From NCBI GenBank assembly GCA_000381585.1, contig KB906740.1, positions 62,001 through 126,000 of the forward strand: a DNA stretch of 64,000 bases, read 5' to 3'. This document shows positions 35,264 to 48,258 of this stretch, piece by piece. The position numbers were made by a program, and so were the translations under genes. This DNA comes from Acidobacteriaceae bacterium KBS 83. Lineage in GTDB: Bacteria; Acidobacteriota; Terriglobia; Terriglobales; Acidobacteriaceae. Each line of letters opens with the position of its first letter. Within the stretch, counting starts at the first letter, position 1. The notes under the pieces are model-generated. The model had not been told where the DNA came from and ran no database searches. It saw nothing but the letters and a program-made list of their open reading frames with translations.

Positions 35264-36976
35264 ATGGGCGGTTCGCGGCGCCATTGCGTAGGGAGGCCCC
35301 TAAGGCATGTTCTCTCTCATGCCTTAGGACTAACTCTGCTCCTACTCGCGCTGACGGCATGCGGCGGTGGCACCAGCAGCAGCGATGAAACCCCGTCTCC
35401 ACCTTCCTCGTCCCCCACCATCACCTCCGTCTCCCCGGCCTGCACTCCTGCCACGATTGCTGTCAACGCGACCTCGCAGTGCACAGCAACAGTGAAAGGA
35501 ACCGGCACCTACAGCTCGGCAGTCACCTGGTCTGCGAGCGGCGGCACCATTAACGCGAGTGGCGCTTTCATCGCGCCGGCGTCAGCAGGTACTGTCACCA
35601 TCACCGCGACGAGCACAGAAGACCCAACCAAATCCGGCGCCGCCGCCATCACCGTGCAGACTCCACCTTCCACCATCATCTCAGTACAGGCAGCGTGCGC
35701 TCCGTCGACTGTGAACGCCAATGCCACCTCGCAGTGCGCAGCAACAGTGAAGGGAACCGGTACCTACAGCTCTGCCGTCACCTGGTCTGCCAGCGGTGGC
35801 ACCATTAACGCGAGTGGCGCTTTCACCGCGCCGGCTGTCGCAGGCACCGTCACCATCACCGCGACGAGTACGCAGGACCCAACCAAATCCGGCGCCGCCG
35901 CCATCACCGTGCAGGCTCCGCCTTCCACCATTACCTCGGTCCAGGCAGCATGCAATCCATCAACTGTGAACACCAATGCAACCTCGCAATGCAGCGCGAC
36001 GGTCGCGGGCACTGGGAACTACAGCTCGGCAGTCACATGGTCTGCGAGCAGCGGGACCATCGGCTCCACTGGTGTGTTTACCGCGCCGGCTGTCGCAGGC
36101 GCTGTGACCATCACCGCGACGAGCGTTCAGGATCCGACGCAATCGGGCACCGCTGCGGTGACGGTGCAGGCATCGCAGAGCAGGCACATCGTGATGGTCA
36201 TGGAGGAAAACCAAAGCTATGCCACCGTTGTCGGCGATAGCGCGTGGCCGAACCTCAATGGCCTGATCAGCAATGGCGCGCTCGCGACAAACTACTACGC
36301 GAACTCGCATCCCTCCATCGGCAATTACTTCATGCTAACCACGGGCCAGTTGCTGACGACAGATGACAGCTCCAGGAAGGTCTGGGACGTCGACAACATC
36401 GCACGCCACATGCTGGCCGCGAATGTGCCATTCAGGATCTACGCCGAGGGTATCTCCCAGGGCTACGTCGGCGGCAATACTGGAGCCTACCTTATCCGGC
36501 ATAATCCCTACGCCATGCTCTCAGACATCGCCGACAATCCGCAGGTCGCCAATCAAACTATCTGGCCGTTCTCCCAGTTCGCCACCGATCTAGCGAACGG
36601 CACACTCCCAGAGTTCTCCTACATCGTTCCTGACGTAAACGACGACGCGCATAATGGCTCGCCGCAGCAGGCGGACCTCTGGTTGCAGACGAACGTCGTC
36701 ATTCCGCTGTCGAACTCACCCGCATTCGCTACCGACGGCGACGGACTTCTCGTCGTCGACTTCGATGAAGCCGACGACAGCGACGATTCGAACGGTGGTG
36801 GTCGCATCGCATGCGTCTTCTGGGGTCCGGTGGCGAAGAACGGCTACACGCAAACGTCCACCACGCTGTACCAGCACCAGAGCATGCTACGCACGCTGAT
36901 GGACGAACTCGGCCTCTCGAACCCTCCGGCGGCGGCCGCGACCGCGCCTTCCATGTCAGAGTTCCTGCAAAAGTAA
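35264..36976 (+). CDS. Lipoprotein phosphoesterase with three Ig-like repeats
   Basis: 570 residues. A basic start and hydrophobic stretch end in the lipobox ALTACGG, so it is lipid-anchored. Three tandem Ig-like (Big_2-type) repeats of 85 residues follow (about residues 53-307), each with a Cys pair (AC.PST and SQC), the string TYSSAVTWSAS or a close variant, and GTVTITATS. The catalytic part starts at RHIVMVMEENQSYATVVGD and contains ANSHPSIGNYFMLT and VDFDEADDSDD, as in acid phosphatase / phosphoesterase (PF04185) proteins. The repeats probably act as a stalk that holds the enzyme away from the outer membrane. Confidence 0.82.
   Translation: MGGSRRHCVGRPLRHVLSHALGLTLLLLALTACGGGTSSSDETPSPPSSSPTITSVSPACTPATIAVNATSQCTATVKGTGTYSSAVTWSASGGTINASGAFIAPASAGTVTITATSTEDPTKSGAAAITVQTPPSTIISVQAACAPSTVNANATSQCAATVKGTGTYSSAVTWSASGGTINASGAFTAPAVAGTVTITATSTQDPTKSGAAAITVQAPPSTITSVQAACNPSTVNTNATSQCSATVAGTGNYSSAVTWSASSGTIGSTGVFTAPAVAGAVTITATSVQDPTQSGTAAVTVQASQSRHIVMVMEENQSYATVVGDSAWPNLNGLISNGALATNYYANSHPSIGNYFMLTTGQLLTTDDSSRKVWDVDNIARHMLAANVPFRIYAEGISQGYVGGNTGAYLIRHNPYAMLSDIADNPQVANQTIWPFSQFATDLANGTLPEFSYIVPDVNDDAHNGSPQQADLWLQTNVVIPLSNSPAFATDGDGLLVVDFDEADDSDDSNGGGRIACVFWGPVAKNGYTQTSTTLYQHQSMLRTLMDELGLSNPPAAAATAPSMSEFLQK
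35420..36184 (+). repeat. Three tandem 255-bp coding repeats
   Basis: Units begin at 35420, 35675 and 35930, spaced exactly 255 bp (85 codons). Units one and two are nearly identical at the nucleotide level; unit three is more diverged. The length keeps the reading frame, so copy number can change without breaking the gene. Confidence 0.9.
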
Positions 36977-38563: not shown

Positions 38564-39043
38564 TTAGCGTAGCAGTCCCTTGCGATCCAGGCGAAAGGCA
38601 TACACTGTGGCAGCGATGTGGACCAAGAGATTGCCGCCGCCCATCAATAGCGGGTGGAGCAGCGCGCCGCTCGGATGACGCAGATAGGCCGGAATTAGGG
38701 CCGGCCACGACATCGCACACAGCCCGGCAACCAGCACAGTGGAGGCGAGCAGCAGCCCCGCGCCGATCCGCCGCATCGCGGCCAGCAGCCACGAAGCTAC
38801 GACTGTCAACGACAGGTTCAGGTTACCGATGCCCAGCGATGCCAGAGCCGGAGTGAAACTCAACTGCCGCCGCATCTCCGGCGTGAACTTGAAAAACAGC
38901 ACATAGACCAGGCTGCCCACCGAAAACAGCCAGACCGCAGTAAAGAACAGCGCGACGACGTACACACCGGCCGGTCTCTTCCCTAATGGGCGCGACATGG
39001 ATGCTCGGTCATTAGCTGTCGTTTCGTTCTGTCTGTCAGCCAC
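38564..39043 (-). CDS. Four-helix membrane protein, function unknown
   Basis: 159 residues if it starts at GTG 39043; an ATG at 38998 (MSRPLGKRPAGVYVV) is an equally possible start, giving 144. Four membrane helices: VYVVALFFTAVWLFSVGSLV, a second near LSLTVVASWLLAAM, GAGLLLASTVLVAGLCAM and LLVHIAATVYAF. I do not recognise the family. It heads the set with the lipoprotein gene and mutY. Confidence 0.6.
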   Translation of the reverse strand: MADRQNETTANDRASMSRPLGKRPAGVYVVALFFTAVWLFSVGSLVYVLFFKFTPEMRRQLSFTPALASLGIGNLNLSLTVVASWLLAAMRRIGAGLLLASTVLVAGLCAMSWPALIPAYLRHPSGALLHPLLMGGGNLLVHIAATVYAFRLDRKGLLR

Positions 39044-39140
39044 GGATTTGCTCGGTATTCATCTTTTGCCCGGTCTCCACAATGCACCACAGCGCCATCT
39101 TTATTGTGAACGGAGTGTCTGGGTTTCAAAAGATCCCGGT

Positions 39141-40571
39141 TCAATTTGATGCTGGTTCAGGGAGCGAATCGCTGGGCAGAGTTTGCAGATCACCAAAGAG
39201 CGAGCTTGGCATGGGGTGCTTGAGGACCATCCACAATATGGCTAAGAGAAAGATCATCTTTATCTGCCCGCCGATGCCGAGTACGTGATACGGCCTCAGT
39301 TCGACCATCAGATACGCGAGGGGTGCACAAAGCACCGCACATGAGATGAAGATTACCCGCGATGCGCTTTCTGGAACCGCCACGCGTCCTGAACCAACAT
39401 CCTCGAGCAGAAACAGGAGAAACGCTCCCCAGATCAAGTACACATGTACCAACTTGTATTCGTAGGAAACCTGCGGGAGCAACAGAAAAAGAACCACGTA
39501 GGAAATGAACTGGTTTAACAAAGGAAGATGGCGAAGGCGGAACCAGTAGAGCAAAATGCCTGCCAATGGTACAACGATGTCGTACGCAAGCAGCATGTTC
39601 TCAATGGCTCGTTTGTCGTTGAACCCGGCATAAGAGAATGCGTGCGCTACCTCCTTGGCAGTTCCGAACAACGAATGATCAAAATAGGGTATATTCCGGC
39701 CGATGATATACCAGTCTCTCAGAAACGGACCGCTGAGGGTGCTATCTCTGATGGCCTGAGAGAGCGTGGGACCGATCCCTGCCAAGGCGAGCAAGGAAAT
39801 AGTTAGCGTCAGGACCAGGGAAAATGCGAAGATCCGATACTTCCGGGTTGATAGGAAGAGAGCAAAATAGATCGCCGGGTTGAGCTTCATGGAGGCGCCG
39901 AGGCTCCAGAAGATGGCCGCGATATATACACGGCTGCGCGCAAACGCGACGGTGCCCAGAAGCACAAGCATCCAGATCACGCCCTCAATATTTGCGCGAT
40001 ACAGAAGGAAAAGCAGAGGAAAGCCGAGCAGGAAGGTCAACCAAATCGCAACCTGGGGCAGCGCCGCAGCGGTAACTCGATGCACGCGGAGGGAAAACAG
40101 GGCGGTTGCGACATAAAATATGGCAAGTGTAGCAACCAATTCCGCAAGCAAGGGACGTTGAAACAGTCGAACGAAGAATAAGTAAACGTAGATCGAAGGA
40201 ACCGGATATGGGTAAGGTTGGTCGAGATAAGGACCTGTCAGAATATCCGGCTCGCCAAAGTGTGCAGCACAGGCGGCGAGGGGCTGAAATCCGTGAACGG
40301 AGTTACGGTATCTACCAAGGACGCACGTGGATCCCTCACCAACGCCCCGCGTGGATCAAATGTTTTGAAATGGGAACTGCGTATGCTGATCGGCCCACGC
40401 GATCGCGGTCAGTGCGAGAAATGTGATCAGATAAAGTTTGAGCCCTTTGCATACTGCGGCTTCGGCGAGGCGGCGAGATATTTCGCGATCTGCTATTCCC
40501 GCGGGCCTCGTCGAAGGGCCCGGCGCGGCTGTGCGATCCTCAACTCTTGATTCGTTAGGTCTCTTGGGCAC
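39141..40571 (-). pseudogene. GT87 (DUF2029) mannosyltransferase-like gene, broken near the 5' end
   Basis: From 40358 down the frame is open to 39141 and encodes a polytopic protein with GT87 features: GPYLDQPYPYPVPSIYVYLFF, LYRANIEGVIWML, SMKLNPAIYFALFL and PQVSYEYKLVHVYL. Upstream, an N-terminal helix (LYLITFLALTAIAW, starting at 40571) is in the same frame but is cut by TGA at 40356-40358. Between about 40358 and 40280 another minus frame reads more like the family (KTFDPRGALVRDP, then TVTPFTDF), so two compensating small indels are likely. Either a pseudogene or an assembly error. If expressed from a later start (TTG 40151), it would lack the catalytic first loop. Confidence 0.65.
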
Positions 40572-40592
40572 GCATCTACTCTTTCCATCTGT

Positions 40593-42389
40593 CTATGGCC
40601 GGGTCTGTATAAGGAACCACTCCTGGCTCAACCAGGTATCGCTCCACTCCATAGTGCCCCCATAACTGCTCTTGTAAATGACTTTCCAACTCCCAGTATC
40701 AATCTTCTGCTCGATGATTCGATCGAGCTGCCGGTAGGGGATCGGCTTACCTCCGTTAAAAAAAAATTCGTGGGCACGTAACGCCTCCGGTTGCCTCTGA
40801 TAAAGAATCCACTTCGGGGGATCTTGCTGCAGTTCTCCGATCAATCCCTCGATTGTGGCCATGCTCGAAGTGTCATACCAGGTCTGCACGTGGTTATGCC
40901 AGAGAGGAACGGTGCAGAAGTAGTTCGCATATGAGTACGGCAGCGACAGAAATCCCTCATCGACGCCGTGGGTGCTCACTTTCTCGCAAACCGGCTCTAT
41001 GAATGCAAGCATCTCGCGCTCAATAATCATCGGCCCATAGACGGGATGCATGTACCATTGCCGGCTCACGAACATCGGCCGATTCACCTCGTTCAGCCAG
41101 CGCAGAGGCTCCATGATTCTATGGAAACATCCGAAGCCAAAAAGAACGGCTGCCGCCGCGAAGAGAAACTCTCGTCCACGCGAGCGTAGATCGATCGGCG
41201 ATGCGATGGGCAACAGGAGCACCAACATCGCGAAAGGAGTATAAAACTGTCCAATGCGGCCACCTGACGACATCGCACGCGACGCAAGCAACCCGAGCGG
41301 AACCACGAACAGAATCTCAAGGCGATTCCATTGTCGATGCGGGTTCGGAGCGAGCTTGTACACGGTAAGCTGGAAAATTGCAATCACGCCGAACAGGTAA
41401 ATCAGAAACAGCGCAACCGCCGAGACCGAAAGAAGCGCCACGCTGGTTTTGAGCCCATGGTCATACAAAAAGTAAATCGCGATAAGGAGCAGGGCCACGG
41501 CAATCGCAGCTAGTGCGATGCTCCGCTTGGTCCTCATCAGCAAGGCCGGCCGCACTAGGTAAGCACATACGAAGGACGCGCTCATGAAAAGCACGACCAT
41601 GGCAGCACACCGATGATAGTCGCGAAACAGCAACAGAGCGGTCCAAGGCATTTTCAATGGAAATAGCAATATGTTTTCCGTACCGCCCTTAGAACCCGCC
41701 GCCCTGATGACGGAATTCGTCAAGTACTGGCGGAACGAATCGCCGGTGAACCACACCACGACGACGACTGTGAGCGCCGCAGTCGCGCCAAGGCATATTA
41801 GCGAGATCAGCCTTCGCTTGCGTAAAAGGCAAGCGATGGCGATGCCCGAGGCCATCAGAAGCGCTGCGCCATCATTGAGCCGCGTCTCAATCGCCAAGCC
41901 CGCCAGAATGCCAAGAAATGCCACCAAACCAAGATGGCTTTCTTCCGGGTTGCTCCGATGGAGCTTCAACAGCAGAACAACGGAATAGATTACGAATGTC
42001 TCCGCAAGAACACGGTAGTCATCGAAGCGGTAGGCTTCAGAGTTCACCGTCAGGAAGAATGCAGCTCCAAACAACACCGCCTTCTGCCGATCGGATAGCG
42101 GTAACTGCCGCGCTATGCAGAGAAGCCCCGTCGCATAGATTGCAACATGCAGCACGGCGGGAACTTTCGATGCCAGCCACCCCTTCCCCAGCAGGTCCAT
42201 AAACCACGCAGTCTCCAGAACGAAGAGCGGCTGCTGAATGAGATGCAGTTGCGAGTACAGTCGCATTCCATGGTTGTAAAGAACCGCATACCAGAACCAT
42301 ACCCCGTCAGCAGTGCAATTGGCGTTCGCGATCATCGCAATGCCGAATGCAACACAAAAGACGAGAACAATCGTCTGATATCGATTCAT
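40593..42389 (-). CDS. Polytopic membrane glycosyltransferase-like protein
   Basis: 598 residues from ATG 42389. About 11-12 membrane helices cover residues 5-425, and a soluble tail of about 150 residues follows. The layout, with an acidic residue in the first outer loop (NANCTADGVWFW) and a C-terminal domain facing outward, resembles the GT-C class (PMT/ArnT/GT39-like), which moves sugars from polyprenyl carriers. Family assignment is by topology, so the donor and acceptor are unknown. A good promoter is at 42441-42469. The longer frame to 42533 runs through the duplicated repeat and is rejected. Confidence 0.68.
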   Translation of the reverse strand: MNRYQTIVLVFCVAFGIAMIANANCTADGVWFWYAVLYNHGMRLYSQLHLIQQPLFVLETAWFMDLLGKGWLASKVPAVLHVAIYATGLLCIARQLPLSDRQKAVLFGAAFFLTVNSEAYRFDDYRVLAETFVIYSVVLLLKLHRSNPEESHLGLVAFLGILAGLAIETRLNDGAALLMASGIAIACLLRKRRLISLICLGATAALTVVVVVWFTGDSFRQYLTNSVIRAAGSKGGTENILLFPLKMPWTALLLFRDYHRCAAMVVLFMSASFVCAYLVRPALLMRTKRSIALAAIAVALLLIAIYFLYDHGLKTSVALLSVSAVALFLIYLFGVIAIFQLTVYKLAPNPHRQWNRLEILFVVPLGLLASRAMSSGGRIGQFYTPFAMLVLLLPIASPIDLRSRGREFLFAAAAVLFGFGCFHRIMEPLRWLNEVNRPMFVSRQWYMHPVYGPMIIEREMLAFIEPVCEKVSTHGVDEGFLSLPYSYANYFCTVPLWHNHVQTWYDTSSMATIEGLIGELQQDPPKWILYQRQPEALRAHEFFFNGGKPIPYRQLDRIIEQKIDTGSWKVIYKSSYGGTMEWSDTWLSQEWFLIQTRP

Positions 42390-42440
42390 TTCGCTGAACA
42401 GTTTTTTTGGAGACAGAGCCGGGCGGAGATGCACATGCTG

Positions 42441-42469
42441 AGTATTGGGGCTCGTCGGAGTGAAGTCAA
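42441..42469 (-). promoter_or_regulatory. Sigma-70-type promoter of the membrane glycosyltransferase gene
   Basis: On the minus strand TTGACT (42464-42469) is separated by exactly 17 bases from AATACT (42441-42446). The predicted start near 42434 leaves a leader of about 45 bases before the ATG at 42389. Confidence 0.6.
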
Positions 42470-42483
42470 ATCGGCGCACACAA

Positions 42484-42572
42484 CAAAGGCCGCCATTGCT
42501 GCGGCCTTTGAAACACTTCTCTTTGCCGGACAACTAGTCGCCCATCACCGGCTCTACGCTCTCCACCCGGAC
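42484..42572 (-). repeat. Second copy of the radical SAM gene tail and its terminator
   Basis: On the minus strand this reads QVRVESVEPVMGD, a stop (42534-42536), then a hairpin CAAAGGCCGC/GCGGCCTTTG (42484-42510). It matches the end of the radical SAM gene at 46117-46200 (KARVESEEPVMGD, stop, same hairpin type): 20 identical bases at 42532-42551 and 46160-46179, then a near-identical run into the coding part. The orientation is the same, so the two are direct repeats about 3.6 kb apart. Confidence 0.85.
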
Positions 42573-42599
42573 CTGACTCCGCTGGTCCGCCCATACACC

Positions 42600-42798
42600 A
42601 GACTCTGCGCCTCCCGGATGACAAACAGCGAGTCCTCATCCCATACTTCATGCTCTTCGCAGCCATCCTCACGCCGCAGACCTCACATCATCTTCCACGG
42701 CGCCCCGCCACGGCGCGCAGTTACGCGTTCTATGTCTTATCGGACTCCTCGTCCTGGCCCTCCGCAAGCCGCTTCCCGCCGAGCCCGCTTGCCCGTGA
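42600..42798 (+). pseudogene. Decayed C-terminal fragment of a GT87 (DUF2029) gene, copy 1
   Basis: Starting near 42603, LRLPDDKQRVLIPYFMLFAA is in one frame, HIIFHGAP in the next, and AQLRVLCLIGLLVLALRK with EPACP and a stop (42796-42798) in the third. Joined, these give the last helices of a GT87 protein. The same DNA occurs at 43625-43740 with its own frameshift. The 5' part of the gene is missing; to the left lies the duplicated radical SAM tail. Not expressed as a protein of that family. Confidence 0.7.
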
Positions 42799-42863
42799 AT
42801 CGCAAGCGCACGATGTCTAGTTGCAGTCGGTTCTCTGAGCGAAGATGATAAAGTGATGCCGAG

Positions 42864-43547
42864 ATGACCCTCAACTTCGCCAAATCGCGAGTACAGATGG
42901 CCTTCCATGTCGCATTGAGCAAGCTCAATTTCGGTATGACGAATTATCGTCATCCCGACCGGGCCGAAGCACTCACTAGCGTTGCGAGAGCAAGATCCCT
43001 GGCCTATACCGCTACCACCCCTCTTGAATGTGTTGAACTCCGCAATGCTGTGCGGGCCGTCAGCAAAGTGCCGGGCGAAATGGCCGAGGTCGGGGTCTAT
43101 CTTGGTGGTACTGCTGCCCTGATCCTCGACGCGATGCCGGAAAAGCACTTGCACCTGTTTGACACGTTTTCAGGCCTCCCAGACGGGGGAGACTATTTAC
43201 AACAGGGGGAATACGCAGGGTCGAAAGAGTCGGTCGAACGGACACTGTCGGCCTACAAGGATCGCGTCAGGTTTCATCCTGGGTTGTTTCCGAGCGAGAC
43301 CGGTCATGAGGTTGAAGACCTGCGATTCTCGTTCGTCCATCTCGACATGGACCTATACGAAGGAACGCTCGGGGCACTCCGCTTCTTCTGGCCCAAAATG
43401 AATCCCGGAGGCATTCTGCTCTGCCATGACTATCCGCAGATTGGTGGGATCGTCCGCGCAATCCATGAGTTTTTCGCTGGCGAGCCGGAATCGTCCCTAC
43501 CGCTATCGGGCCAGCAATGCCTCGCGGTAAAACTGCGGCGAGAATAG
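42864..43547 (+). CDS. TylF/macrocin-type O-methyltransferase
   Basis: 227 residues. SAM-binding strand and loop AEVGVYLGGTAALIL, then HLFDTFSGLPDGGDY and SFVHLDMDLYEGTL, with the metal-binding Asp residues of the TylF family, and PGGILLCHDYPQIGG near the end. The family methylates sugar hydroxyls in antibiotics and surface glycans; here the neighbouring glycosyltransferase genes favour a surface glycan. The ribosome site is weak. It is bounded by two GT87 fragments, which suggests it came in or was moved with them. Confidence 0.88.
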   Translation: MTLNFAKSRVQMAFHVALSKLNFGMTNYRHPDRAEALTSVARARSLAYTATTPLECVELRNAVRAVSKVPGEMAEVGVYLGGTAALILDAMPEKHLHLFDTFSGLPDGGDYLQQGEYAGSKESVERTLSAYKDRVRFHPGLFPSETGHEVEDLRFSFVHLDMDLYEGTLGALRFFWPKMNPGGILLCHDYPQIGGIVRAIHEFFAGEPESSLPLSGQQCLAVKLRRE

Positions 43548-43556
43548 CTCTATTCC

Positions 43557-43775
43557 GTGATCAGCGTCAGTATTCCTCCCGTTTCCTACGACTACACGCT
43601 CGTCTCGCTCTACGCCCCGCTTGCCATCCTCTGCATCCTGGCATTACGCCTCCCGGATGACAAACAGCGAGTCCTAATCCCATATTTCATGCTCTTCGCA
43701 GCTCTCCTCACGCCGCAGAGCTACATTCATCTTCCACGGCGCCCGCTGCTGCTAGTTAGGGCCAAGCGGGCATAG
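43557..43775 (+). pseudogene. Decayed C-terminal fragment of a GT87 (DUF2029) gene, copy 2
   Basis: An open frame from GTG 43557 encodes PPVSYDYTLVSLYAPLAIL and LRLPDDKQRVLIPYFMLFAA, matching the C-terminal third of GT87 proteins (compare PQVSYEYKLVHVYL in the gene at 39141). After TPQSY the frame is shifted by one extra T near 43727, so the normal IIFHGA appears in another frame and the end is wrong. It begins nine bases after the TylF-type gene. Copy 1 at 42600-42798 shares long near-identical DNA. Could be translated as a 72-residue piece, but hardly functional. Confidence 0.65.
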
Positions 43776-43784
43776 AATGCGGAA

Positions 43785-44699
43785 ATGAGTGTCTATGAAT
43801 CCTTGCGGGAATCTCTGCTTGGTCTCGGGCCGCACCATCCGGTACTCAAGCTGGCAATCCGAGCACAAGCGGGTCTCAATGGCTTCAGCCTGTCGTCTAC
43901 TGACAAGGCGTTAGTACTGCGGAAGGACAGTCGGGCAATGCTTCTGCCGCTGAATCATTATCCCCAAGTACCGACCGCCATCCACATGTGGAATCTTTAC
44001 TTCGATACCATCGAGACAGTAGAGGGAGTGATGGACTTCTCCACACCCGGCCTGCGAAAGTACAAGCGTACTGGCGTCTCCCTGTGGGCACCAGGCATGG
44101 CTGAGGACGACACAATGGATGTCTACACGGCGCGGTATACCCCAAAGGCCGGAGATGTGATCTGGGATGTTGGAGCGCACGCAGGAGCCACAGTCTATTT
44201 CTTCTCCCAAATGGTTGGCACTACCGGCAAGGTCTATGCGTTCGAGCCAGATGAGATCGCTTACGAATACCTGCTGCGCAATATCGAATTGCATGACCTG
44301 AAGAATGTCATTCCGGTAAAGAAGGCTATCGCCGGGGAGACGGGCTTTGCATTCTTCAGCATGGACGGCACGCAAGGCGCCGGCATTCAGAACTTTTCCC
44401 AGTGCACCGACGAAAGCCTAATGCGCAAGGTTGAGACGTTATCCTTTGCCGATGCCTGCGAAGCATATGGGATGCCGACTTACGTAAAGATGGATATTGA
44501 AGGAGCCGAGGCTGATGTAATCGAAAAGTCCCTGCCTTTTATCCAGAATCACAGAATCCACTTTGCGATCGAGAGCGATCATCGAGTGCATGGCGAATTC
44601 ACGACGGTCCCTCTAGTTCGCATATTTTCCAGCATCGGATACGACGCCACATCCTCGATCGAATACGGCATGCAGTTCACCTGGGGGGAGCCGCGGTGA
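43785..44699 (+). CDS. FkbM-family methyltransferase
   Basis: 304 residues. The SAM site is DVIWDVGAHAGATVYFF, followed by GKVYAFEPDEIAYEYLLRNIE and YVKMDIEGAEADVIEK, the signature order of FkbM methyltransferases. Members O-methylate sugars of polysaccharides, glycolipids and natural products. The start at 43785 follows the GT87 fragment by nine bases. With the TylF-type gene it forms a plus-strand pair facing the radical SAM and third methyltransferase genes. Confidence 0.88.
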   Translation: MSVYESLRESLLGLGPHHPVLKLAIRAQAGLNGFSLSSTDKALVLRKDSRAMLLPLNHYPQVPTAIHMWNLYFDTIETVEGVMDFSTPGLRKYKRTGVSLWAPGMAEDDTMDVYTARYTPKAGDVIWDVGAHAGATVYFFSQMVGTTGKVYAFEPDEIAYEYLLRNIELHDLKNVIPVKKAIAGETGFAFFSMDGTQGAGIQNFSQCTDESLMRKVETLSFADACEAYGMPTYVKMDIEGAEADVIEKSLPFIQNHRIHFAIESDHRVHGEFTTVPLVRIFSSIGYDATSSIEYGMQFTWGEPR

Positions 44700-44931
44700 C
44701 GATAGCTATCCTGAAGAAGACTGATGAAAAATTCAATTGGTGTGTAGTTCGTGCAGCGCGATATTGGCAAAAGGGCTGCGCAATGAACGCGCTGACCACC
44801 TGCATGCCGGCGTTGTGGTAAGTCATCAATGCCCCAAGCTGTTAATCAATTAATGATGTTGCATCCATTCAGAAGTTCTTCGTGTTTCTTTTGCTCGCCG
44901 GATGCGCCGCTCGGGATTGTTCGCCGATCAA

Positions 44932-45897
44932 TCAGCGGGACAACGCGCTGGACATGACCGATGAATCGACAGAAGGAGATACCTGATCTCGAGCAATCGA
45001 CGCGAGCCCGTACAGAATCTTGCTTACAGGGCCACTGGAACGAACGGGCGCGATTCCGCTTTCAAGCAGCTCAAATCCCTCGCTGTCCAGTAGTGCTTTT
45101 AACGAAGACTCGGTGAAAAAATTGAGGTGCTCGCTGCACTTCTGCAAGGCAAGCGGTGGAATTCGATTGAACTTCACCCGACAGACCGTCGAGTACAGGT
45201 CCACAAGCTTCAGCAATGGCCCAATCTTCAGTAAGGCATTCAGATAGTGCCACTGCAGTCTGCCGCTGCTCGCCCATTGAAGGGAGGGGCGCTCGTGGGG
45301 AACTTCAAAATAAAACAGCGTGTTGGGGGTTCCGAGGGGCTTTAGACGCTGCAGGATCTGTCGCGGCTCGGAACAGTGCTCCAGCACGTGCGCCAGCATG
45401 ACGAAGTCAAACTGCCTGCCCTCTACCGACGTCAGCCCTGCGACACCTTTGATCGGCTTCGCATCGGAAATGTCATAGACAAAACGGTCGGTACCCAGAC
45501 CGTCGGGGATAAACTGGCCGCGGTCCCCGCCATAATCGAGCACGGTCGAGATCGATTGCCTTCTGTCGCCTAGGATCTTTGCGAGGTTCTCTTTCCTCGA
45601 AACCATCTCAGCAGGATCGTGGCCGATGCCTTCGTGGACCTGCCTCGAATACCAGAACTCGTGGCGGTGCCGCGCCTCAAAATACGTCTCGCCACGGTAG
45701 CCGGCGTACAGGTTTTGAGCCTCCGAATCGGTAAGCCGGGTATCGAAAAAGCGGAAAGAACAACCATTGCACTCGCACAGGTTCGCTTGGGTGGGTCCAG
45801 TGCCGCATGCATGGTTCGCAATGAAGGGTGAGACAATCGCGGGCCACCGATGAAGATCCTCAGAACCACAGCAGGGACACGCGGCAATGACGTACAT
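44932..45897 (-). CDS. Class I SAM methyltransferase with N-terminal zinc site
   Basis: 321 residues. The N-terminus has CPCCGS and, after a gap, CECNGCSFRFFD, a four-Cys zinc site as in sugar C-methyltransferases and related enzymes. The SAM loop is VLDYGGDRGQFI, and FDFVMLAHVLEHCSEP is the Methyltransf_11-type motif. A GGAG ribosome site lies seven to ten bases before the ATG at 45897. It shares the strand of the radical SAM gene and lies downstream of its terminator, so it needs its own promoter. Substrate unknown; context suggests a glycan or lipid head group. Confidence 0.82.
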   Translation of the reverse strand: MYVIAACPCCGSEDLHRWPAIVSPFIANHACGTGPTQANLCECNGCSFRFFDTRLTDSEAQNLYAGYRGETYFEARHRHEFWYSRQVHEGIGHDPAEMVSRKENLAKILGDRRQSISTVLDYGGDRGQFIPDGLGTDRFVYDISDAKPIKGVAGLTSVEGRQFDFVMLAHVLEHCSEPRQILQRLKPLGTPNTLFYFEVPHERPSLQWASSGRLQWHYLNALLKIGPLLKLVDLYSTVCRVKFNRIPPLALQKCSEHLNFFTESSLKALLDSEGFELLESGIAPVRSSGPVSKILYGLASIARDQVSPSVDSSVMSSALSR

Positions 45898-46116
45898 ACG
45901 GAACTCCGCGGAGAGGAATGCCGGCCAGGACTATCTTGGCCCATCTGCCTGGATTCTAACTGACCGCAGCAGACATGCGGCCAGGATCCGATCCGTCTCA
46001 GCAGGTGTCGGACCATCGGCGGTAGTCCGAATATACCAAAGCATCACAGCAAGACCGGGAAAGCAGGCGGTGAGGCGTAATTATGATTGTGTCGTGCCAA
46101 CCTTCACAGACACGAC

Positions 46117-46142
46117 AAAGGCCGCCATCGCCGGCGGCCTTT
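46117..46142 (-). terminator. Hairpin terminator of the radical SAM gene
   Basis: AAAGGCCGCC (46117-46126) and GGCGGCCTTT (46133-46142) form a ten-pair stem 20 bases after the stop. The T run after the stem is short. A similar hairpin recurs at 42484-42510. Confidence 0.75.
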
Positions 46143-46161
46143 GCTTTGCTGCGATAGGGAA

Positions 46162-48258
46162 CTAGTCGCCCATCACCGGTTCTTCGCTCTCCACCCGCGC
46201 CTTTGGAGCGGGCTTGATCGCGTCGAGTGAAACCAGCCCTTCGACCGGCTTCTCGCCCAGCACGTGCTCCTTGTAGAGCCGCGCCATCTTCGCAGCTTCG
46301 GCATCGCTCTTGATCTTGGCATCGCGCGCGCGGATCTTTTCCTCGCGGCTGTTCTTTGCGATACCCGACTTTTCGAACGTGTCGTTGGCCGCAGCATTCA
46401 CGTGTTCCTCGTTCAGCACCAGGTCGTACTTGTCCTGCGTGTCGAGGCCCACCTTCTTGCCGCCCGCGAAGATCTCATGCCGGCCATGCTCGTCGTACCA
46501 CTTGGTCAGCGTCGCCGTCATGTGCATCTTCTCGATGATGTTGCGCCAGCCCACACCCGTGTTGTAAGCGCAGAAGCTGATCTCGCCTTCCTGCGTCGCG
46601 TACGGGATGATGCACTGCTCGGTGCGGCGGAAGTCATAGTTGAACAGGTCCTGGAACCACATGCCTGCGATGAACAGGAAGTTCCAGCGGTCGGCACGAC
46701 GCTTCTCGATGTCTGCCATCGTGCGGTCACCCGTCACCTTGCCATAGTTCCGGCCGGTCGCGCCGAAGCACTTATCGAACTTCTGCAGCAGGTCCATGAT
46801 GCGGAAGTGCGTCGGCGACTTGGTCGGATCGTAATTCCGCAACAGTGCCAGCGCCACGCCCACCACGGAGAGGAACTTGCCGCGCGCGGCGTCATTCACC
46901 TTCGCGACGTCCTTCGCCAGCCGGTCCGCATTCAGGAATGCTGTTACCGGAACGGCTTCCTTCGTGTGCTTGTCGATCATCAGCGCCATGCCGATGCCGC
47001 AGTTCGGATGGCATCCGCAGGAGAGCTGACCCCAGTCTGCATTCGGACCGTGTACCAGGTCGGCCCAGTCGGAGAACGTGCTCATGAAACTGATCGGGAA
47101 CCAGTCGCGCTCCGGCACGCCCATGCCCGTCTGGTCGCGCACATCATGCGCCAGGTGGCTCAGCGTGTAGCGCTGCGCCTGCCGGCGCTCGTCGCTCACT
47201 TCCTCGTCGCGGCCGGTAAAGCTCACGGGCTGGAAGCTCAGGAAGTTGATCTTCTTCGGATTATCGAGCGCGAACTCGATGATGCGCCCCACCTGCTCGT
47301 TGTTGATGCCGTTGACGATGGTGGTCACCGGCACGATGTCCACACCCGCTTCGTGCAGGTTATGAATCGCCTGCAGCTTTACATCGAACGCGTTGCCCAC
47401 CTTCCGGTGCGAGTTTGCCGCGTTTCCGATGCCGTCGAACTGCAGGTAGGCATAGCGCAGACCCGCCTCTGCAGCGGCGCGGGAGAATTCCTTCGACTTT
47501 GCAAACTCAATGCCGTTGGTCGCCGCCTGCACTGAGTTGTAGCCCACCTTGCGCGCGTACGCGACCGCATCTAGGAAGTACGGCGAAAGCGTCGGCTCGC
47601 CGCCTGAAAACTGCACCGACATCTGCCGGCGCGGCTTGATCGAGATCGCGTTGTCCAGCATGGTCTTGATCTCGTCCCACGTCAGTTCGTGGACGAAGCC
47701 CACCTGGTTCGCATCCATGAAGCAGGGATCGCACATCATGTTGCAGCGGTTCGTCAGGTCGATCGTCAGCACCGAGCCGCGTCCATGCGTCACCGTCGAG
47801 GTGCCATGGTTGTGCAGCTTCTCGTCGTTGTGCGCGCGGATATCCCGCCCCGGGAAGACTTCTTCCAGGTGCTTGAAGAACTTCGTATCAATCGACATCA
47901 CGTCTTCAAAATGCCCGTGCTTGGGGCAGTCCTTCACCATCAGGATCTGGCCGTCGCGCTCGATGATCTGCGCCTTGATCTCGCCGACCTTTTCGTTCAG
48001 CAAAATCTCGTGCGGCAGCTTGCCGTCAATGATCTGCTGGCGTATCTCCGGCACGCACTTTGGACACAGCGAGTCGGTCGTACGCGGCCAGCCAAGCGGT
48101 GGCTTCTCTTTCTGGTAACTCTTCAAAAGCGGCTTATCGGACCACTTGGGCGTAAAGGAAGCGTTCGGCTTGATGCTGTTCAGCTTCTCGAAGATGGTCC
48201 ACGCACTCTGGGCTGCAATCGTCACTGCCCGCTCTGCGTATTTCACGGCTTTCGACAT
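46162..48258 (-). CDS. Radical SAM protein of the Tes/Mss type, probable membrane-spanning lipid synthase
   Basis: 698 residues. The N-terminal metal domain has SLCPKC (Cys65, Cys68) and DCPKHGHF (Cys111), as in archaeal MJ0619/Tes proteins. The radical SAM core has CNMMCDPC (Cys172, 176, 179) and SGGEPT (218-223). A further Cys group follows, SCGCHPNCG (Cys414, 416, 420), plus Cys549 and Cys563. Tes couples lipid tail ends by C-C bonds; bacterial relatives are tied to diabolic-acid-type membrane-spanning lipids, known from subdivision 1 Acidobacteria. An AGGAGA ribosome site precedes the ATG. The C-terminal 130 residues are charged and look like an added tail. The lipid role is inferred from family and clade. 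Confidence 0.78.
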   Translation of the reverse strand: MSKAVKYAERAVTIAAQSAWTIFEKLNSIKPNASFTPKWSDKPLLKSYQKEKPPLGWPRTTDSLCPKCVPEIRQQIIDGKLPHEILLNEKVGEIKAQIIERDGQILMVKDCPKHGHFEDVMSIDTKFFKHLEEVFPGRDIRAHNDEKLHNHGTSTVTHGRGSVLTIDLTNRCNMMCDPCFMDANQVGFVHELTWDEIKTMLDNAISIKPRRQMSVQFSGGEPTLSPYFLDAVAYARKVGYNSVQAATNGIEFAKSKEFSRAAAEAGLRYAYLQFDGIGNAANSHRKVGNAFDVKLQAIHNLHEAGVDIVPVTTIVNGINNEQVGRIIEFALDNPKKINFLSFQPVSFTGRDEEVSDERRQAQRYTLSHLAHDVRDQTGMGVPERDWFPISFMSTFSDWADLVHGPNADWGQLSCGCHPNCGIGMALMIDKHTKEAVPVTAFLNADRLAKDVAKVNDAARGKFLSVVGVALALLRNYDPTKSPTHFRIMDLLQKFDKCFGATGRNYGKVTGDRTMADIEKRRADRWNFLFIAGMWFQDLFNYDFRRTEQCIIPYATQEGEISFCAYNTGVGWRNIIEKMHMTATLTKWYDEHGRHEIFAGGKKVGLDTQDKYDLVLNEEHVNAAANDTFEKSGIAKNSREEKIRARDAKIKSDAEAAKMARLYKEHVLGEKPVEGLVSLDAIKPAPKARVESEEPVMGD

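Follow-up and report, generated by a model that had tools for sequence, protein, structure and literature searches.

In the window, a stretch of 64,000 nucleotides from Acidobacteriaceae bacterium KBS 83, DNA of about 7.0 kb (39.05-46.11 kb) has very probably been gained at the 3' end of a conserved radical SAM gene in the lineage of this strain. The island (39050-46107, left edge within 39044-39140) is absent from the congener G001, and contains, about its middle, an orphan copy of the last codons and terminator of the radical SAM gene. The structure is an ordinary recombination scar of a known kind residing within a foreign glycan island, and not a new mobile element. The gain of the island is well supported, and the exact recombination route is inferred.

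A contig of G001 (C345, locus L031) matches the window at 29.7-38.98 kb and, 75 bases on, at 46108-46496. The conserved left neighbour of the island, a membrane protein gene on the minus strand (38564-39043), has a 67% identical counterpart at L031 8768-9208, which directly adjoins the radical SAM tail, and the coding order mutY, lipoprotein gene, membrane gene, radical SAM tail is intact. This empty site is provided by one congener, the contig ending in the radical SAM gene 390 bases past the junction. The earlier note had marked the 3.6 kb DNA between the two tail copies, with insertion as one of two possible origins, and had suggested to look for the corresponding empty site in a relative. 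Both the gain and the empty site are borne out; the size is not, the site in G001 spanning the whole 7 kb, twice the repeat-bounded block, with the orphan tail (copy 1) internal. The extension of the gained DNA leftward to about 39.05 kb had been overlooked, as had a 98-bp repeat described below.

The mutY and/or the lipoprotein gene lie downstream of the radical SAM gene also in G020, G017, G013, L044, L047, L093, L095, L100 and L101. Genes of the island were found at the radical SAM locus in none of 80 named loci, other genera included. Since G001 features the empty site, and other genera the same neighbourhood without the island, the state found in the window is best seen as derived by gain. 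That the 7 kb DNA is ancestral to the genus, and has been lost in G001, is very improbable: the display of the empty site by one congener only speaks for a loss, but the neighbourhood in the other genera, either radical SAM-lipoprotein or radical SAM-mutY, lacks the island, and the latter is compositionally foreign, the GC content of its genes being 53-57% vs. about 60-61% in the flanks. The distance between radical SAM and mutY genes varies from 0.16 to 6.6 kb across genera, and the interval is filled by other genes, some resembling type IV pilins by their N-termini. The notion of a glycan-gene hotspot common to genera was discarded, because island genes were not found there and the fillers seen are other genes.

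The radical SAM gene (46162-48258, minus strand) encodes a protein of 698 aa (Pfam Radical_SAM, 5e-18). The NCBIfam Tes model NF045702 is by far the best model for this protein, which scores 329.9 bits, below the cut-off of 450 set for membership in the Tes equivalog; a match to PDB 7tol has E=5.6e-62. By these similarities the protein is classified as a Tes-like (tetraether lipid synthase) homologue. Acidobacterial Tes homologues have been proposed to make branched tetraethers, membrane-spanning lipids (PMC8941075). Matches to the radical SAM protein, most of them near full-length, were found in 59 of the 61 relatives searched. The synonymous divergence of the gene from its G001 counterpart is not raised (0.27-0.35 at fourfold sites, vs. 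0.38-0.57 in nearby genes on the left), and no sign of a distant donor is apparent in its sequence.

The 3' end of the gene is present twice in the window, in the same orientation. Comparing the window against itself, as the earlier note had proposed, and using BLAST, a direct repeat is detected (42478-42569 and 46110-46197; 78.5% identity over 93 columns, E=9e-14), which extends beyond the 20-base core. The claim that tail, stop and hairpin recur at about 42.5 kb holds. Copy 2 (46108-46202, minus strand) is the end of the intact gene, from its last codons through the stop to the terminator, the hairpin having a predicted energy of -32.1 kcal/mol (z -5.8). Copy 1 (42478-42574, minus strand) is made up by 11 orphan codons, a TAG stop and a terminator, the hairpin of which is retained with a shorter, 10-bp stem. 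What is repeated is the stop and terminator of the radical SAM gene, together with the 11 codons preceding the stop. The coding tails (42532-42574 and 46160-46202) are identical at 39 of 43 positions, and share, as originally reported, 20 identical bases (AACTAGTCGCCCATCACCGG) and the peptide RVESxEPVMGD (RVESVEPVMGD* in copy 1, RVESEEPVMGD* in copy 2). The next-best match of the 43-base coding tail in the whole window, both strands considered, is 26/43. The similarity between the copies breaks off sharply on both sides, before codon -11 and shortly after the terminator. To the right of copy 1 it stops abruptly at codon -11 (42574); no radical SAM sequence is found upstream of this copy, and 33 unassigned bases separate it from a GT87-like gene relic starting at 42608. 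Copy 1 is most likely without function.

Exact sites for the 20-mer are two in the 6.25 Mb genome, plus one site with three mismatches. A degenerate tail motif has two sites in the genome of the strain, the two copies themselves, and a single one in G001; it is absent from 298 further genomes of the family. The motif thus looks specific to the genus within the genomes sampled. Coding-tail repeats were not found at the 80 named loci, where similarities are confined to terminators; a widespread tail-repeat element was excluded on both grounds.

Copy 1 differs from copy 2 as much as from the tail of G001, identity being 64/84 (about 76%) in both comparisons, while copy 2 and the G001 tail agree at 73/87 positions. 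Five informative sites of copy 1 are shared with copy 2, five with G001, and twelve are unique to copy 1. A fresh target duplication would have started as two identical copies, and the equal distance of copy 1 from copy 2 and the G001 tail makes such an origin unlikely. Copy 1 may be either a third allele of the genus, or a tail which decayed fast after constraint was lost, the sequences being too short to separate the two. Equidistance would be expected of a third allele, and unconstrained decay could give the same picture, as twelve sites are unique to copy 1.

One of the two origins initially envisaged, integration at the gene 3' end with target duplication, fares poorly. Neither integrases nor transposases were identified in the main ORFs by Pfam and NCBIfam searches, nor in six other ORFs located in or overlapping the block, and no integrase, transposase, tRNA or known RNA family was found at the junctions. 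Site-specific integration of an integrase island is most improbable and largely refuted: the location at a gene 3' end with terminator, the foreign composition and the 20 bases identical in both copies are what such an island would show, but the block yielded no integrase gene, the genome has only two tail-like sites, and the copies are as different as alleles of different species. Moreover, the site in G001 lacks the full 7 kb, of which copy 1 is an internal part, and near-identical att repeats are missing at the outer ends. Islands mobilized by tyrosine integrases are similar in that foreign cargo lies beside the 3' end of a gene, part of which is repeated; they differ from the locus analyzed here, which has yielded no integrase and in which the two copies of the tail have diverged, one of them being internal to the gained DNA instead of marking its far end.

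As no integrase or transposase was found in the unit, the simplest account of the structure is that one-sided homologous recombination displaced a resident radical SAM allele in the course of a stepwise import of glycan genes, a reading which we infer with about an even chance of being correct. The 7 kb of glycan genes would have been acquired in steps downstream of the radical SAM gene, separating it from what were ancestrally its neighbours there, the membrane gene 38564-39043, the lipoprotein gene and mutY. In one step, a close relative would have supplied DNA that included the relative's own radical SAM 3' region. This DNA would have recombined homologously on one side, at the radical SAM gene or close to it; on the other, it would have been joined without homology to the resident allele, within the final codons of the latter. 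The 11 codons and the terminator of the displaced allele would have been left as copy 1, an orphan scar, with the incoming genes set between it and the intact gene. The synonymous divergence of the radical SAM gene, not raised as an import might be expected to make it, would speak against displacement.

A process of this kind, homology-facilitated illegitimate recombination, has been described in naturally competent bacteria and in Escherichia coli (PMC3240628), and is experimentally rare (PMC5361080). If one end of the incoming DNA was homologous and the other was not, exactly one duplicated tail and a single abrupt junction should result. An abrupt non-homologous junction inside the old gene is present; the two tails are homologous to each other, and a homologous crossover in or near the conserved gene would be compatible with this. 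Unlike the process described, what is available here is a presumed historical scar, read from the sequence. A further parallel is provided by T6SS effector and Rhs loci, in which orphaned 3' gene ends have been attributed to displacement by incoming modules (PMC5361080). In the T6SS effector-immunity arrays of Vibrio cholerae and in Rhs loci, as would be the case in the window, a module anchors in a conserved region, and relics of old 3' ends reside downstream in the same orientation (PMC5361080). In contrast to those systems, what would have been displaced here amounts to 11 codons plus terminator, from a single gene that is conserved, and the cargo consists of glycan genes; neither an immunity gene nor a selective role of the leftover is seen, and one event is observed, in place of a population series.

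The second origin envisaged in the earlier note, that copy 1 is the tail of another radical SAM gene, is retained in part: copy 1 fits better as the mark of a displaced resident or imported allele, a full second gene at 42.5 kb being absent in every relative examined. In its strict form, in which a full tandem duplicate once lay to the right of 42.48 kb and was deleted save for its tail, this origin is rather unlikely. A gene of this kind would end in the register and orientation that copy 1 displays; this copy has also kept the terminator, and its divergence fits an old paralogue. Yet tandem pairs of close full-length radical SAM copies are absent in every relative examined, the congener G001 being single-copy, and the foreign genes must still be brought in. 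It is distinctly unlikely that the 3.6 kb methyltransferase block arrived on a circular DNA, either plasmid or excised circle, together with a short piece of radical SAM tail, at which one homologous crossover inserted it. This would explain why direct copies starting and ending at the same two points lie on either side of the block (42575-46107), but homology would be limited to about 90 bases at 76-79%, the block yielded no gene for replication, mobilisation or an integrase, and the 39.05-42.48 kb half is left unexplained. A single tail joined to the DNA on the left of 42480 was not found in any genome, and searches for relatives of island genes did not reveal donor genomes with either half of the structure.

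The content of the block between the copies is as first described: two methyltransferase genes on the plus strand, one on the minus strand and two GT87-like relics. The island as a whole is probably an accessory set of surface-glycan genes, as judged from the gene families. The leftmost gene (39141-40151, minus strand) encodes a GT87 glycosyltransferase (Pfam GT87, 1.3e-6), the 5' end being probably damaged. Its frame (39141-40551, minus strand) seems to extend further upstream than the TTG start, interrupted there by a stop codon, and for this reason the gene may be a pseudogene. The adjacent ORF (40593-42533, minus strand) mechanically begins within the copy 1 region; the likely start is an ATG at about 42389. 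It encodes a multi-pass membrane protein of about 600 residues with a C-terminal soluble part, which has no sequence matches in Pfam, NCBIfam or PDB. Its AlphaFold model is weak (pLDDT 57), and the Foldseek matches, oligosaccharyltransferases and AftA, suggest that the protein is probably a GT-C glycosyltransferase. Relatives, mostly 36-40% identical, occur in six other genomes.

To the right of copy 1, a gene for a TylF-type methyltransferase (42864-43547, plus strand; Pfam TylF, 2.8e-19) is flanked by the two GT87-like relics. Relic 1 (42608-42800, plus strand) is a frameshifted C-terminal end with an 86% peptide match, relic 2 (43558-43776, plus strand) a C-terminal fragment fused to unrelated sequence. 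The relics form a direct repeat of 98 bp (42608-42705 and 43647-43744; 93% identity), which looks like a second, nested scar of the same gene turnover. Full-length relatives of the relics, 42-45% identical, are found in G120 and G086, and the full source gene was not found in the genome of the strain. The nearest relative of TylF (69%) resides in G001 at a different locus, on contig C278, beside NeuB-like and TPP-enzyme genes. An FkbM-type methyltransferase (43785-44699, plus strand; TIGR01444 83 bits, Pfam 7.7e-14) and a class I methyltransferase (Methyltransf_23; 44932-45897, minus strand; Pfam 1.8e-14) complete the block. Matches to island genes are rare, being found in 7, 6, 15 and 4 of 200 genomes of the family, the strain's own counted, and the relatives detected in the donor search are 31-69% identical and located at other loci. 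It is quite improbable that incoming DNA lands repeatedly at the radical SAM 3' end within the genus, exchange of tail alleles between species bringing different glycan cassettes downstream and each arrival leaving an orphan tail.

The locus shows surface-glycan genes accumulating beside a conserved gene, in the absence of visible mobile-element genes, and the steps have left a scar that can be read. From scars of this sort, the order of imports in Acidobacteriaceae could be worked out. As a general process this is already known, and the weight of the case is modest.

Repeats of other kinds were noticed. At L094 (4194-4598), four copies of a terminator-like hairpin, spaced by about 113 bases, lie downstream of the radical SAM gene of another genome. 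In the window, a tandem repeat of about 255 bp (83%; 35464-36171) is found within the ORF 35264-36976, and the G001 version of this ORF contains the repeat as well.
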